Source of the DNA: Acidimicrobiia bacterium
GTDB lineage: Bacteria > Actinomycetota > Acidimicrobiia > Spongiisociales > UBA5794
Direction: 5' to 3'
NCBI GenBank assembly: GCA_026985095.1
Contig: JALSQW010000048.1
Span: 1-42,254, forward strand
Length of the DNA stretch: 42,254 nt
This document shows positions 36,052-42,254 of the stretch, piece after piece. The translations under genes and the position numbers were made by a program. How positions within the stretch are numbered: the stretch's first letter is position 1; each line of letters starts with the position of its first letter. The notes beneath the pieces were generated by a model. That model had not been told where the DNA came from. It was given only the letters and a program-made list of their open reading frames with translations, and did not search any database.

Positions 36052-36093
36052 ATCTACCGTCGACCCGAACACGTCACACCACGTCGGTACCAT
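36052..36093. promoter_or_regulatory. Divergent -10 boxes, DHA2 transporter and nurA
   Basis: TAGATT on the minus strand (36057-36052) could serve the transporter unit. TACCAT on the plus strand (36088-36093) lies 7 nt before the nurA ATG 36101, giving a leaderless nurA-herA-sbcD-sbcC transcript. No good -35 box is visible on either side. A direct repeat of ACGTC lies between them (36071-36085). Confidence 0.35.
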
Positions 36094-36100
36094 CGCACCC

Positions 36101-37060
36101 ATGGGTCAGATCTACGTCGAAGGGTGGGCTCCCGACTACGGGAGCCCGATGCAGACCGACGGCGCCCTCGCCGAGCCGGAGAAGGTCGACGAGGACGTCG
36201 AGGTCGCCGGTCGTTGGGCCCCGATCGTCGGCGTCGACGACGGCGTCGCCGAAGTGGTGTTCGTCGACGGTGTCCGTCGCGTCGACGCCCGGTTGACCCT
36301 CGACGACCCGACCGACGGCCCCATCGCCGGGCTGTGTGGGACGTACGCCGTCGGGGCCGTCGGGTGGGACCGGCGAGCCGGACGGTCGACGTACCTGCCC
36401 AGCCGCGTCGCTCGACTGGCGCTCTTCGGATCCGGGAAGGTCGCGGAGGTACCGGTGGCCGGCCCGCGGCTGGCGTACCGCTCCGAATCGGTCGCCGAGA
36501 CCGATCCCGCTGCTCTCGTGCAGCGGTTCCACGGGGCGATGCGCAAGGCGGAGGCGGCCCTGTCCGAGGAGCTCGTCCGTTCCGGACGGTTCGTTGTGGC
36601 CGATGGGCCGATCAACGATCTGTCGGCGACCGAGAAGGTGGGCTTCATCAAGTCCCACCGCGCCCCGTACCTGTCGTCCGAGCGGCGCGCGGTGGTCGCT
36701 CGTCTCGCCACCGGCCAGCGGACGCCCTTGTTCCTCATCGGTGCCGGCGGCGCGTACCCGCGGTATTCGTGGTACTTCCGGCTGGCGGACGTGCCCCGCG
36801 GTCACGCGTGGAGCGGGATCGCCCGAGCCGAGGTGTCCAGCCGTCTCGATCTGGCGACGGCGAAGCGGGTCGCCGATCGGGTCGCCGCCGTCCTTCCCGC
36901 CACGGCTTCCCAGCCCCACATCGAACCGCGAGCACCCCAGAACCTGGTTCCCATCGCCGCGCTCGAACGCGAGCTGCGTCGCCTGATGGGTGACCCCGCC
37001 TTCATCTACCGTGCCCTCAGGGAGGCCATCATGCGCGATCGCATCGGATCTGGACGATGA
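36101..37060 (+). CDS. nurA: NurA-family nuclease
   Basis: 319 residues. NurA motifs are visible in order: F-V-D56-G57-V-R-R near residue 55 (metal-binding Asp), V-V-A-D168-G169-P-I-N, G-F-I-K184-S-H-R, and the C-terminal W-Y-F-R-L block near 224-228. NurA is an RNase H-fold 5'-3' nuclease that works only with the HerA translocase, and the next gene is HerA, overlapping by 4 bp (ATGA). The long upstream in-frame extension shadows the opposite strand; ATG 36101 is chosen for the TACCAT box. The product would resect or degrade DNA ends with HerA, Mre11 (SbcD) and Rad50 (SbcC). Confidence 0.85.
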   Translation: MGQIYVEGWAPDYGSPMQTDGALAEPEKVDEDVEVAGRWAPIVGVDDGVAEVVFVDGVRRVDARLTLDDPTDGPIAGLCGTYAVGAVGWDRRAGRSTYLPSRVARLALFGSGKVAEVPVAGPRLAYRSESVAETDPAALVQRFHGAMRKAEAALSEELVRSGRFVVADGPINDLSATEKVGFIKSHRAPYLSSERRAVVARLATGQRTPLFLIGAGGAYPRYSWYFRLADVPRGHAWSGIARAEVSSRLDLATAKRVADRVAAVLPATASQPHIEPRAPQNLVPIAALERELRRLMGDPAFIYRALREAIMRDRIGSGR

Positions 37061-38781
37061 CCCGGCCTCATGGTGTGGGCCGAGTCCTCGGTACCGAGCA
37101 CACCAACACCCGGGAGTTCCGGGTCGCCATCGACGACGACGAGTACCTCCAGCTCGACGACCTCGTGGTCGTCCGGACCACGGTCCCGAAGGAGGGCGAA
37201 GTGCGGACGTACGGGGTCGTGACGGAGGTCGAGGCGATCTACGAAGGGGCCCAGTTCGAATCCGACACCCACCGGATCGCCGACGAGGGGATCCTCCCGG
37301 GAGCGAAGGTCCGCTCCGCCCGGGTCGCCGTCACCCGCCTCGAGCCCGAGCTGTGGGTGTCGGCCGACCCCGGTGAGGTCGTCGAGCGGGCCACCGGAAC
37401 CGAACGGGACAAGGCCCTCTACGTCGACGAGATGGGGCGGCCGCTCCCCGTCGGGCTCGGCCGGGACGGGGAGCCGGTCTTCGTGGATCTCGACTTCTTC
37501 GATGGTCGCAAAGGCGGGCACATGTCGATCTCGGGGATCTCGGGGGTGGCGACCAAGACGTCCTTCGCCCTGTTCTTCCTCCGACTGCTGTCGGCTCGTC
37601 CCGATCTCGTCGGGGACGCCGCGGCCAACCTTCGCATCCTCGTGTTCAACGTCAAGGGCGAGGACCTGCTCTGGCTGGACAAACCGAACCGGCACTTCAC
37701 CGAGGACGACGCCATCGCCTGGGCGAAGCTCGGGGTGCAGCCGGCACCGTTCCCTTCGGTGTCGCTGTGGGCCCCGCCGCGTCGGCGGAGCGGTGACGTG
37801 GTGATCCCCGACACCGGCGGCCGCCAGGAAGGCGTCGCCGCGTTCACCTGGACGCCGCGGGAGTTCATCGACGAAGGTCTCCTCCGGTTCCTGTTCACGG
37901 ATGCTTCGGACTTCCGGAACCAGCTCGCGTTCGTCCAAGAGCGGGTGCAGGCCCAACTCCGTCGGTACGCCAGGGACGTCGAAGGGATGCCGGGGGCGGT
38001 GGTGCTCCGCGATCCGGGCGATGGCACCGATCCGCGGCTCCCGGTGAAGGTCCATCCTGGCGAACCGGTCGTCACGGACCTGGGCACGCTCATCGAGGCG
38101 ATCGAAGCGTTCCTCGACCCTGCCGACGGCGAACCGGATCCACGATGGTCCGGTCGAACCCAAGGCGGCACGATCTCGGCGTTCCTGCGACGATTGCATG
38201 CCGCGGAGCATCGTCTCGGGCATCTCATCCGAGCCGGCGAGTCGCGCCGGATCGACCGTCGCGCCGCCCAGGTCACCGTCGTCGGGATCCAGTCGCTCCA
38301 CGATCTCGGTCAGCGGTTCGTCGTCGGGGCGTTGCTGTCGGAGACCTTCGGCGAGAAGGAAGGCACCGGTCGGCGCCTGCCACTGACCGTGATCGTCCTC
38401 GACGAGCTGAACAAGTACGCCCCGAGGGAGGGCAACAGCCCGCTCAAGGAGATGCTGGTCGACATCGCCCAACGCGGCCGATCCCTCGGTGTGCTCCTCG
38501 TCGGCGCTCAGCAGACGGCCTCCCGGGTCGCTCCCGAGGTCATGGAGAACGCCGCCATCCGCGTCGCCGGTCGCCTCGATGCCGCCGAGGCGGAACGTTC
38601 GGAGTACGGCTGGATGCTCCCGTCGACGCGGGCCAGGGCTCGCCTGCTGAAGCCCGGAACGATGGTGCTGTCGCAACCCGCCATCCCGGTCCCGCTGGTC
38701 CTCGAGTTCCCGTTCCCCCCGTGGGCCACCCGGAAGGAAGAGGTCGCCGACGACGGCGGCGACCCCTTCGAGGGGATCTGA
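37057..38781 (+). CDS. herA: HerA-like DNA translocase with atypical P-loop
   Basis: 574 residues. The N-terminal 110 residues form a beta-rich HAS-barrel-like domain (F-R-V-A-I...Y-L-Q-L-D-D-L-V-V-V), followed by the DUF87/FtsK-HerA ATPase core. The Walker A region reads H-M-S-I-S-G160-I-S-G163-V-A-T-K167-T168-S, lacking the Gly before Lys and one residue longer than the usual G-A-T-G-S-G-K-S. Walker B is T-V-I-V-L-D-E-L-N-K. A sensor Gln (V-G-A-Q-Q-T) and a putative arginine finger (R-V-A-G-R-L) follow. HerA is a hexameric translocase that feeds DNA to NurA. It overlaps nurA by 4 bp and directly abuts sbcD. Confidence 0.85.
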   Translation: MTRPHGVGRVLGTEHTNTREFRVAIDDDEYLQLDDLVVVRTTVPKEGEVRTYGVVTEVEAIYEGAQFESDTHRIADEGILPGAKVRSARVAVTRLEPELWVSADPGEVVERATGTERDKALYVDEMGRPLPVGLGRDGEPVFVDLDFFDGRKGGHMSISGISGVATKTSFALFFLRLLSARPDLVGDAAANLRILVFNVKGEDLLWLDKPNRHFTEDDAIAWAKLGVQPAPFPSVSLWAPPRRRSGDVVIPDTGGRQEGVAAFTWTPREFIDEGLLRFLFTDASDFRNQLAFVQERVQAQLRRYARDVEGMPGAVVLRDPGDGTDPRLPVKVHPGEPVVTDLGTLIEAIEAFLDPADGEPDPRWSGRTQGGTISAFLRRLHAAEHRLGHLIRAGESRRIDRRAAQVTVVGIQSLHDLGQRFVVGALLSETFGEKEGTGRRLPLTVIVLDELNKYAPREGNSPLKEMLVDIAQRGRSLGVLLVGAQQTASRVAPEVMENAAIRVAGRLDAAEAERSEYGWMLPSTRARARLLKPGTMVLSQPAIPVPLVLEFPFPPWATRKEEVADDGGDPFEGI

Positions 38782-39951
38782 GTGAAGGCGCTTCACACTT
38801 CGGACTGGCACGTCGGCAAACGCCTCGGCCGATACGACCGCAGCGACGAGTTCCGGGCCGTGGTCGACGAGGTCGTCGAGATCGCCGATCGCGAAGCCGT
38901 CGACATCGTCCTGCATTCGGGTGACCTGTTCGATCGGCCGCTGCCTCCCATCGACGCCATGGACCTCGCGTTCGGAGGGCTCGTCGCGCTGAGCGCGGAT
39001 GGGGCCCGGCCGGTCGTCGTCATCGCCGGGAACCATGATGCGCCGGGCCTGTTCGAGGCACTGGCGCCCTTCCTCGCGGCGCACAACATCCACCTGGTCG
39101 GAGCCATCAAGCGGCCCGACGAAGGGGGCGTCCTGGATCTTCGGACCCCCGGCGGGCGGGCGGTCGTGAGCTGCTTCCCGTTCCTTCGGGAAGGACGGGC
39201 GTTCGAAGTGTGGGAGCCGGTCGACGAGCACTACAAGCGATACGCCGATCGGCTGCGGGCCATCTCGGAGGCCTACAGCACCTACGCCACTCGCCGTGCA
39301 GGCACCGATGCCGTCACCTTCCTGGTCGCCCACTTCCTCGTGGGCGGCGCCAAGGTGCACGGCCACGGCGCGCCCCGCGGTGAACGGGAGCTGCACATGG
39401 GCGAGGCGTACGCGGCGACCGCCGAGGCGATCCCGCCCGGTCCCCAGTACGTCGCCCTCGGGCACATCCACGCGCCCCAGCCGGTCCCCGGAGCGAAGGT
39501 GCCCGCCGAGTACGCGGGGTCGCTCCTCGAGCTCGACTTCGGGGAGGCCGGCGAACGGAAACGGGTGGTCGTGGTGGAAGCCGAACCCGGCCTGCCGGCC
39601 ACTGTCCGGTCGGTTCCGCTCCGGCGGGGGAGGAGGCTGATGCGCCCGCGGGGAACCTGGGACGAGATCCTCGCCATGGACGGTGTCTCCGACGCCTACC
39701 TCGACCTCACCGTCGAGACGACCGGTCCGGACCCTTCCCTGGCCGACCGAGCCAGGGAGGCGTTCGCTCGCGTCGTCAAGGTCAGGGCCGAGTACCCGCG
39801 GATCGAGGCGCCCATGGCCGACCGTCGGCGTGGGCGGACCCTCGCCGAGCTGTACCGGGCCTACTACGAGGCGAAGGAAGGCGTCGCCCCCGATGCGGGC
39901 CTCGTCACGGCGTTCGAGGCGCTCCAGGAGACGACCGATGCGACCGCTTGA
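38782..39951 (+). CDS. sbcD: SbcD / Mre11-like exonuclease subunit
   Basis: 389 residues from GTG 38782, the base after the herA stop (zero spacing). All calcineurin-like phosphoesterase motifs are present: D8-W-H10, S-G-D48-L-F-D, G-N84-H85-D86, H184 and G-H228-I-H230, which bind two Mn ions. The C-terminal region from about residue 270 is the SbcC-contacting capping domain. With SbcC it cuts and resects double-strand ends, hairpins and protein-blocked ends. It overlaps sbcC by 14 bp. Confidence 0.95.
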   Translation: MKALHTSDWHVGKRLGRYDRSDEFRAVVDEVVEIADREAVDIVLHSGDLFDRPLPPIDAMDLAFGGLVALSADGARPVVVIAGNHDAPGLFEALAPFLAAHNIHLVGAIKRPDEGGVLDLRTPGGRAVVSCFPFLREGRAFEVWEPVDEHYKRYADRLRAISEAYSTYATRRAGTDAVTFLVAHFLVGGAKVHGHGAPRGERELHMGEAYAATAEAIPPGPQYVALGHIHAPQPVPGAKVPAEYAGSLLELDFGEAGERKRVVVVEAEPGLPATVRSVPLRRGRRLMRPRGTWDEILAMDGVSDAYLDLTVETTGPDPSLADRAREAFARVVKVRAEYPRIEAPMADRRRGRTLAELYRAYYEAKEGVAPDAGLVTAFEALQETTDATA

Positions 39952-42254
39952 GCTGCGGATCAGGAACTTCCGGTCGTACTTCGGCGAGGAGGCCGTCTTC
40001 GACTTCCGCGACCGTCGTCTGGTGGGGGTGGTCGGCCCCATCGGAAGCGGCAAGTCCTCGATCCTCGACGCGATCGCCTTCGCGCTGTACGGACGAACAC
40101 CGAGGATCGCCCGATCCACTCGCTCCCTCATCCACCAGCGCGCCGACCACGCCGCGGTCGCCCTGCGGTTCTCCGTCGACGGCGACGTGTGGGAAGTGCA
40201 GCGGGTCATCCGTCGCAAGGGCCAGAGTCAGCATGCCCTGTACCGTTTCGACGTCGACGCCCCCGTCGCCCAGCCGGTCGACAAGATCGTGCAGGAGGCC
40301 GAGGTCCTGGCTCGGATCGAGCAGATCCTCGGCCTCGACTTCGACGCGTTCGGTCGGTCGGTCATGCTCGCCCAGGGTCAGTTCGCCGAGTTCCTCACCG
40401 CCCGACCCGCCGAACGCGACAAGGTCCTCAAGGGCGTCTTCGGCTACGACCGCATCGACACCATGCGAGAGCGCGCCAGGGAGCGGGCCCGGGACGCGGC
40501 GCTCGACGCCGACAAGGCGGCCCTCGAGGTCGAGCAACTGACCGAACTGCGATCACAGGTCACCGAAGAGCGTGACCGCGTGGAGCGACTGGAACGTCGC
40601 AAGGCCCAGCTCGAGGAGGCGGCCGGTGAGTTCTCCGCCGTCACCGACCAGCGGCGTGAAGCCGCCGCCGAACTCGCCGACGCCAAGAGCCGCAGTGGCG
40701 CAATGGCGACCCTCGCCGAACGTCTCCCCGACCGAGCCTCCGTCGCGGAGCTCGCCGACGCCCTCGCCACCCTCGACGCCGAGGGCGCCGCGGCGGCCGC
40801 GGACCTCGAGGCCGCCGTGGCCGCCGTCGCCGAGGCCGAGGCGACGTTGGAGCGATTCCCCTCCGATGAGCGGGACCAGCTCGAGGAGGCGGCTCGTTTG
40901 GTCGCCACCCGGGAGGCCGCCGTGCGTCGGGCCGCCGACCTCGAGGACCGCCTCCGAGCCTCCGAGGCGGACCTCGAGGCCGCCGTGGCCGCCGTCGCCG
41001 AGGGCCGGGCCGACCTGGAACGGATCGAAGCCTCGCTGCGGGCCGCCACCGAGCGGAAGCAGGCCGCCACCGCGGCGCTCCTGCAGCGACGAGAGCGACT
41101 GCACCAGGCCCGTCACGCCGACATGGCGCTGTCCCTGCGACGAGAGCTCGCCCCGGGTCGGCCGTGCCCGGTGTGTGAGCAGGAGGTTCCCGAGGTCCCG
41201 GCGATCCCGCCGAGTCCCGATGTCGAGGACGCAGCCGCGGCGGTCGCCGCGGGTGAGATCGAAGCCGAGGCGGCGGTGAACGACCACGCCGCCGCCGCGG
41301 CTTCCCTCGAGGCCGCGCGTGTCCGACTCGAGGCCGCCATGGCGCGGGTGGGTGAGCACGAGGCGCAGATCGAGGAGCTCCGAGCGGACCTCCGGGCGGC
41401 CGGTGACGAATTGACGGAGATCGACCGGCAACTGGCCGCGATCCTCGGTGAAGGGGACACCGGTCAGCTCCTGCGCCGGCGGCGGAAGGCGTTGGCCGAC
41501 GCCGAAGCCGCCGTCGCCGACGCCCGCCGGAACGCCACCGAAGCCAGAGCGCGTCACGACCAGATCATGGCGTCCGGCGGTGAGCTCCGTCGTGACCTCG
41601 ACGAGCTGCTGCTCCGGGTCGCCGAACTGGGAGCGACGGTCGGGCTGTCGGCGCCCGCCCGCGACGCCGACCCGGAGAAGGCCGTCGTCGCGCTCCACGA
41701 GGCGACGGCAGCCGAGACGCAGAGGGCCGTCGCCCGCGTCGAGGCAGCGACGGTCGCCCTCGAGGAGGCCGACGCCCGCCTGGCGCAGCTCCGTGAACGG
41801 CTCGAGATCGAAGGCTCCGTGGCCGAAGCTCTCGCCGGGGTCGGTGCCGAAGTGGCGGCGGCGAACCGACACATCGAGAGGGCCCGAGCGCGTCTGGGTG
41901 CCCTCCCGCGAGCGATCGCGGCCCGGGACGAAGCCCTCGCTGCCACCCAACGCTACGAGCGGCTGGCCGCTGACCTCACCGATGCGCGGTTCGTCCGGTT
42001 CCTTCTCGACGAGGAACGGTACCGCCTCGCGGCGCTGGGGAGCGACCATCTCGAGCGCCTCTCCAACGGCCGATACCGATTCACCGACGATGGCACGTTC
42101 GCCATCGTCGACCTCGCCGCTGCCGACGCCATCCGGAAGGCCGACAGCCTCTCGGGTGGTGAGACGTTCCTGGCCTCCCTCGCCCTGGCCCTCGGCCTCG
42201 CCGAGATCGTGGCCAGGACGGGCGGGAGGATGGACGCCTTCTTCCTCGACGAGG
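39938..42254 (+). CDS. sbcC: SbcC / Rad50-like ATPase, 3' end cut by window
   Basis: 772 codons are visible from ATG 39938, with no stop before the window ends. The Walker A is G33-P-I-G-S-G-K-S40-S, the Q-loop L-A-Q-G-Q-F-A-E-F-L near 145. A long Ala/Glu/Arg coiled coil follows with the zinc hook C410-P-V-C413 at its tip. The returning coil leads to the ABC signature L738-S-G-G-E742 and Walker B M-D-A-F-F-L-D-E at the edge, so only the last few dozen residues (D-loop and His switch) are missing. At about 800 residues in all it is short for SbcC, nearer to archaeal Rad50. It is the ATPase that tethers and opens DNA ends for SbcD. Confidence 0.95.
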   Translation, partial: MRPLELRIRNFRSYFGEEAVFDFRDRRLVGVVGPIGSGKSSILDAIAFALYGRTPRIARSTRSLIHQRADHAAVALRFSVDGDVWEVQRVIRRKGQSQHALYRFDVDAPVAQPVDKIVQEAEVLARIEQILGLDFDAFGRSVMLAQGQFAEFLTARPAERDKVLKGVFGYDRIDTMRERARERARDAALDADKAALEVEQLTELRSQVTEERDRVERLERRKAQLEEAAGEFSAVTDQRREAAAELADAKSRSGAMATLAERLPDRASVAELADALATLDAEGAAAAADLEAAVAAVAEAEATLERFPSDERDQLEEAARLVATREAAVRRAADLEDRLRASEADLEAAVAAVAEGRADLERIEASLRAATERKQAATAALLQRRERLHQARHADMALSLRRELAPGRPCPVCEQEVPEVPAIPPSPDVEDAAAAVAAGEIEAEAAVNDHAAAAASLEAARVRLEAAMARVGEHEAQIEELRADLRAAGDELTEIDRQLAAILGEGDTGQLLRRRRKALADAEAAVADARRNATEARARHDQIMASGGELRRDLDELLLRVAELGATVGLSAPARDADPEKAVVALHEATAAETQRAVARVEAATVALEEADARLAQLRERLEIEGSVAEALAGVGAEVAAANRHIERARARLGALPRAIAARDEALAATQRYERLAADLTDARFVRFLLDEERYRLAALGSDHLERLSNGRYRFTDDGTFAIVDLAAADAIRKADSLSGGETFLASLALALGLAEIVARTGGRMDAFFLDE

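Follow-up and report, generated by a model that had tools for sequence, protein, structure and literature searches.

A compact four-gene unit, nurA-herA-sbcD-sbcC, closes the window (the whole 42,254-nucleotide stretch of DNA analysed here, which is the entire contig C48 of a 2.93-Mb genome assembly in 70 contigs). With a probability of roughly 0.7, we read it as an operon under DNA-damage control that encodes an auxiliary machine for double-strand-end resection, made up of SbcCD and HerA-NurA, beside AdnAB. Because the four genes are kept, lost, and inherited together and lie behind the promoter type of recA, the unit has the look of a genuine machine for repairing DNA damage. A preliminary description of the same DNA was right about which genes these are and about their forming one unit, and the conserved linkage that it had named as its own test was borne out in related genomes; its archaeal classification, the meaning it gave to the HerA P-loop, and its proposed replacement of AddAB/RecBCD did not hold up.

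The locus and its four proteins

Four open frames were confirmed at positions 36101 to 42254, all on the forward strand, and a promoter-like site precedes them:

36070..36095, + strand: promoter-like site CACGTCACACCACGTCGGTACCATCG, fitting YGTCR-N11-TANNNT (PafBC / recA-P1 type)
36101..37060, + strand: nurA, 319 aa; bacterial NurA type, predicted RNase H-like 5'-3' nuclease (sequence and AlphaFold model)
37057..38781, + strand: herA, 574 aa; predicted DNA translocase of the Deinococcus radiodurans HerA type (sequence match, residues kept)
38782..39951, + strand: sbcD (mre11), 389 aa; GTG start; phosphodiesterase motifs
39938..42254, + strand: sbcC (rad50), 772 of 834 aa in the window; remainder on contig C46

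The junctions that bind the genes into one compact unit were as first described, namely, an ATGA overlap between nurA and herA, a zero gap at which sbcD follows directly on the herA stop codon, and a 14-bp overlap that places the sbcC start (39938) inside sbcD. In all four frames, GC content by codon position followed the pattern of real genes. The sbcC gene runs off the end of the window: positions 42128 to 42254 are identical to G000:C46:1-127 (exactly 127 bases, the break falling inside sbcC), after which C46 completes the gene at 834 aa. As these 127 end bases are common to both contigs, C48 and C46 are probably neighbours in the genome. The closest named relative by HerA was an Acidimicrobiia MAG (95% identical). 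Genes upstream of the module were metabolic and transport genes, none of them defence genes, and a search of the flanks for conserved partner genes yielded only lineage-level neighbours (CoA-transferase-like, GSDH-family, and transporter genes). In one other genome, herA is broken into two overlapping frames (G012:C23:36353-38054), reflecting a frameshift or an assembly error.

Sequence searches against solved structures matched NurA to D. radiodurans NurA (7f6d_H, E 7e-27) and to Thermotoga maritima TM1739 (E 2e-11). The Pfam NurA model gave the window protein 16.1 bits against a 21-bit cut-off and matched 8 of 9 aligned family members at E <= 0.01 (best, 7e-6). An AlphaFold model (pLDDT 90.9) had the RNase H-like NurA fold and aligned with 7f6d_G at Z 25.1 (rmsd 2.6, 289 aligned) and with the TM1739 structure 1zup at Z 24.2; archaeal NurA proteins, found by fold only, gave Z values of about 10 to 14 (2ygk, Z 14.1). 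Residues D56, K184, and R277 align to catalytic D53, K201, and R309 of D. radiodurans NurA and were invariant in 22 sequences. HerA matched D. radiodurans HerA (7f6d_B) at E 1e-124, and Pfam assigned no HerA family to it; given this and the subthreshold NurA score, family models alone would miss the NurA-HerA pair. HerA keeps K167, T168, D203, D449, E450, R457, and R514, and every feature of D. radiodurans HerA that was compared (the Walker A Lys-Thr, D220, the Walker B Asp-Glu, and pore arginines R495 and R552) has its counterpart here. The residues kept in the two proteins are those shown or argued to be necessary in D. radiodurans, where the Lys and Thr of the HerA P-loop contact the nucleotide (PMC9960219).

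Judged by sequence, then, both NurA and HerA are of the D. radiodurans, bacterial type and not archaeal; being closest to bacterial Deinococcus proteins, they do not fit the archaeal-type label first given to the set. Likewise, the P-loop of HerA (SGISGVATKT), singled out in the preliminary description as a variant, is no oddity of the window's herA, since GISGVATKT is invariant across the family, D. radiodurans included, bar one conservative change, and is the family's normal Walker A. HerA is predicted to form a hexamer and to bind NurA.

SbcD passed TIGR00619 (146 versus 77.65 bits) and carries phosphodiesterase motifs DWH, GDLFD, GNHD, AHF, and GHIH, whose motif residues were invariant in the alignment. 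For SbcC, the sbcc models were the best match, with the truncated window piece scoring below their cut-offs; read over the window and C46, the protein has a Walker A GPIGSGKSS, a zinc hook CPVC, a signature LSGGET, and a Walker B DAFFLDE. All four identities were thus borne out by sequence matches, motifs, and the NurA fold. The observation that SbcC is Rad50-sized is true and also general, as most SbcC proteins linked to HerA were about 790 to 840 aa (exceptions, about 1,010 to 1,030 aa); unlinked SbcC proteins in Actinomycetota were 936 to 1,167 aa. Two genomes (G079:C1 and G182:C6; loci L157 and L158) retain an SbcCD that most resembles the linked type, with a 792-aa SbcC in G079, without HerA and NurA.

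Linkage, loss, and inheritance across Actinomycetota

Across the phylum, the four genes are retained together, lost together, and passed on together. We surveyed 246 sampled Actinomycetota genomes and a separate set of 80 HerA-bearing loci in public genomes. HerA of the window's type was encoded by 54 of the 246 genomes, accompanied by NurA in 52 and by SbcD in 53; no genome had NurA without HerA, and the module genes lay on the same strand whenever they shared a contig. SbcCD was found without HerA in 27 of the 246. Some of the module-bearing genomes consist of a single contig. At least 60 of the 80 loci held all four genes, and most of the remaining loci were cut by contig ends. The linkage in related genomes on which the preliminary description had staked its reading is therefore real, and its extent across the phylum rules out a chance neighbourhood.

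Two arrangements were observed: the compact nurA-herA-sbcD-sbcC of the window, and a herA-first form in which 0 to 7 kb of varying genes separate herA from sbcD-sbcC-nurA. On the HerA tree, one switch of gene order separates the two. The intervening genes of the herA-first form differ from family to family, and the idea that they include a fifth module gene was dropped. Beside the standard cluster, one genome carries a second, divergent nurA-herA-sbcD cluster (G185:C15:13749-16944).

Pairwise distances of the four proteins correlated at r 0.75 to 0.92 (permutations gave at most 0.15), a result that speaks for co-inheritance and not for contact, because the shared ancestry of the organisms stays in the comparison. 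Within the window's own family, NurA, HerA, SbcD, and SbcC were jointly missing from 11 genomes, one of which is 79% complete; a twelfth, 63% complete, was left out of the count. On the rpoB tree, these joint losses amount to about four independent events, at least three of them forced by well-supported branches.

A probable damage-type promoter and the AdnAB background

Between the -10 element of the site upstream of nurA (TACCAT, 36088-36093) and the nurA ATG there are 7 nt, which makes the nurA mRNA probably leaderless. Sixteen nurA upstream regions have a common block, YGTCACACC...TACCATCG, directly before the start codon, with the spacing of the mycobacterial LexA-independent damage promoter consensus, tTGTCRgtg-8nt-TannnT (PMC5656591); the site before the window's nurA starts with CGTC rather than TGTC and is without the GTG of that consensus. 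With a position matrix built from the 16 nurA sites, its own included, 36070..36095 was the best match in the window. The pattern YGTCR-N11-TANNNT lay upstream of recA in all 21 relatives (0.24 expected), before nurA in 25 of 46 nurA-first loci (0.3 expected), and before herA in 6 of 18 herA-first loci (0.1 expected), whereas inner module genes had 0 to 1. That the site precedes the first genes and almost never the inner ones supports a single transcription unit that would take part in the damage response.

Genome-wide, the strict motif had seven matches (reversed control, two), which fell before recA, uvrB, a yneA-like gene beside lexA (the LexA being named by eye from its sequence), nurA, and three small frames. 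The small frames (L214, L215, and L220, on G000:C23, C29, and C58) are possible members of the damage regulon. A LexA box (GAAC-N4-GTTC) was not found upstream of nurA. These patterns suggest that the module shares its promoter type with recA and is under putative PafBC control. In two relatives, recA itself (G006:C89:19163-21025 and G030:C25:40440-42308; L209, L210, L212, and L213) carries an intein-like insert of about 1 kb near residue 195 of the RecA domain, within one open frame of 715 to 762 aa.

The window's genome also has AdnAB, a pair of UvrD-like helicases that each carry a PD-(D/E)XK domain at the C terminus, encoded about 14 kb beyond the point where C48 and C46 join; the best solved matches were the A and B chains of 6ppj, 6ppr, and 6ppu, which we take to be mycobacterial AdnA and AdnB. 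Over the first 24 kb of C46, AdnAB included, no damage-type site reached the threshold. A tandem of long PD-(D/E)XK proteins was present in relatives with and without the module, the exceptions being G040 (none) and G014 (one; genome 63% complete), and in 10 of 26 genomes AdnAB and the module were on one contig, 4.5 to 75 kb apart. The module is thus no substitute for AdnAB, and with AdnAB present the proposal that its products stand in for AddAB/RecBCD is not supported. Directly upstream of AdnAB in the window's genome is a 380-aa protein with a PD-(D/E)XK domain only (G000:C46:20482-21624; L061:8483-9625), and an extra PD-(D/E)XK match at this place recurs in most relatives.

Proposed role and comparison with known systems

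In the auxiliary resection machine that we propose, damage would induce the operon along with recA through the PafBC-type promoter. SbcC-SbcD would find and clean a broken or blocked DNA end, a HerA hexamer would thread the duplex into a NurA dimer, and NurA would degrade mainly the 5' strand, exposing a single-stranded 3' tail on which RecA would load. The module may act beside AdnAB, perhaps on ends that AdnAB cannot use. Physical cooperation of the four proteins, induction by damage, and a division of labour with AdnAB are what we infer from the patterns described above.

It seems unlikely to us that HerA-NurA and SbcCD are instead independent repair enzymes that share one damage-induced operon and have no joint mechanism. 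The genomes with SbcCD and no HerA, the short SbcCD left alone in G079 and G182, and the resection that D. radiodurans HerA-NurA performs in vitro without SbcCD (PMC9960219) would all fit such independence, and the frequent separation of herA and sbcD by unrelated genes in herA-first genomes counts against a joint module. However, HerA-NurA without SbcCD essentially never occurs in Actinomycetota, co-loss and strongly correlated divergence disfavour independent enzymes, and archaeal Mre11 is reported to interact with HerA (PMC2288612). Nor need the phenotype of the module be one of simple repair, because D. radiodurans became more resistant to UV and mitomycin C when nurA-herA was deleted (PMC9960219). 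Better survival of those mutants, together with the presence of AdnAB in any case, would suit a module that restrains recombination, for instance one that trims ends or destroys them; we consider this quite improbable, as the promoter type common to recA and uvrB argues for an active repair role and a HerA homologue of Thermus thermophilus is reported to aid UV survival (PMC5448004).

Least probable in our judgement, to the point of being very unlikely, is that the four genes are an anti-invader system in which HerA-NurA degrades foreign DNA whose ends SbcCD recognises. TdpAB (8wet), a solved complex that pairs an ATPase resembling HerA with a nuclease resembling NurA, is a defence system, and its G chain does match the NurA model, far more weakly than D. 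radiodurans NurA does (Z 13 versus 25); the patchiness of the module within the window's family also agrees with such a role. Against it stand the absence of any NurA family and the weak partial HerA matches in PADLOC, the metabolic and transport neighbours upstream, the congruent divergence of the four genes, the residues kept from D. radiodurans resection, and the recA/uvrB promoter type. The action against invading DNA raised in the preliminary description thus gained no positive support here.

One bacterial four-gene example is already known: in Oceanithermus profundus, the same genes occur as nurA-hepA-sbcD-sbcC, herA (hepA) being followed by sbcD and sbcC as here, and were explained as an isolated recruitment (PMC5448004). 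What was reported there as a single case recurs widely, both across Actinomycetota and in genomes titled Chloroflexota, which makes recruitment in Oceanithermus alone doubtful. A more far-reaching and more tentative reading, to which we give somewhat less than even odds, is that SbcCD-HerA-NurA is an old, vertically inherited, recA-controlled part of the damage response in Actinomycetota and Chloroflexota, a second pathway beside AdnAB, of which the Deinococcus/Thermus pairs would be reduced remnants. The literature searched, whose coverage was partial, yielded no mention of the phylum-wide module, its co-loss with AdnAB kept, the single change of order, or the damage promoter; a 2004 comparison of the FtsK-HerA superfamily may note further bacterial cases.

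The closest solved relatives are NurA-HerA of D. radiodurans (7f6d), for which the HerA-NurA resection step has been shown and with which the window's proteins have the tested catalytic and DNA-pumping residues in common. The bacterial pair has been said to be present in few bacteria, such as a phylum without RecBCD/AddAB (PMC9960219). There it is a NurA-HerA pair, whereas here it belongs to an operon with sbcDC in a genome with AdnAB. In Actinomycetota, a large phylum, NurA-HerA is frequent; it goes with SbcCD, follows a promoter of the type that precedes recA, and persists alongside AdnAB. The bacterial pair, whose role was previously unclear, thereby gains a clear biological setting, and the actinobacterial damage regulon gains a likely member. 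TdpAB likewise combines an ATPase and a nuclease of these two kinds; its nuclease is a much weaker structural match, and no defence genes lie in the neighbourhood of the module.

The archaeal herA-mre11-rad50-nurA operon of Sulfolobus islandicus and S. acidocaldarius unites the same four families, and the activity of the archaeal four-protein set has been demonstrated; Mre11-Rad50 is proposed to act before HerA-NurA, and all four genes are reported to be essential in S. islandicus (PMC4351679, PMC2288612). The module described here differs in that its NurA and HerA are, by their sequences, of bacterial type (the significant sequence matches among solved structures were bacterial only), in that it is dispensable, having been lost about four times in one family, and in that it coexists with AdnAB and has a bacterial damage-type promoter. 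Joint action of SbcCD and HerA-NurA thereby becomes testable in organisms other than hyperthermophilic archaea, for which these genes are indispensable.
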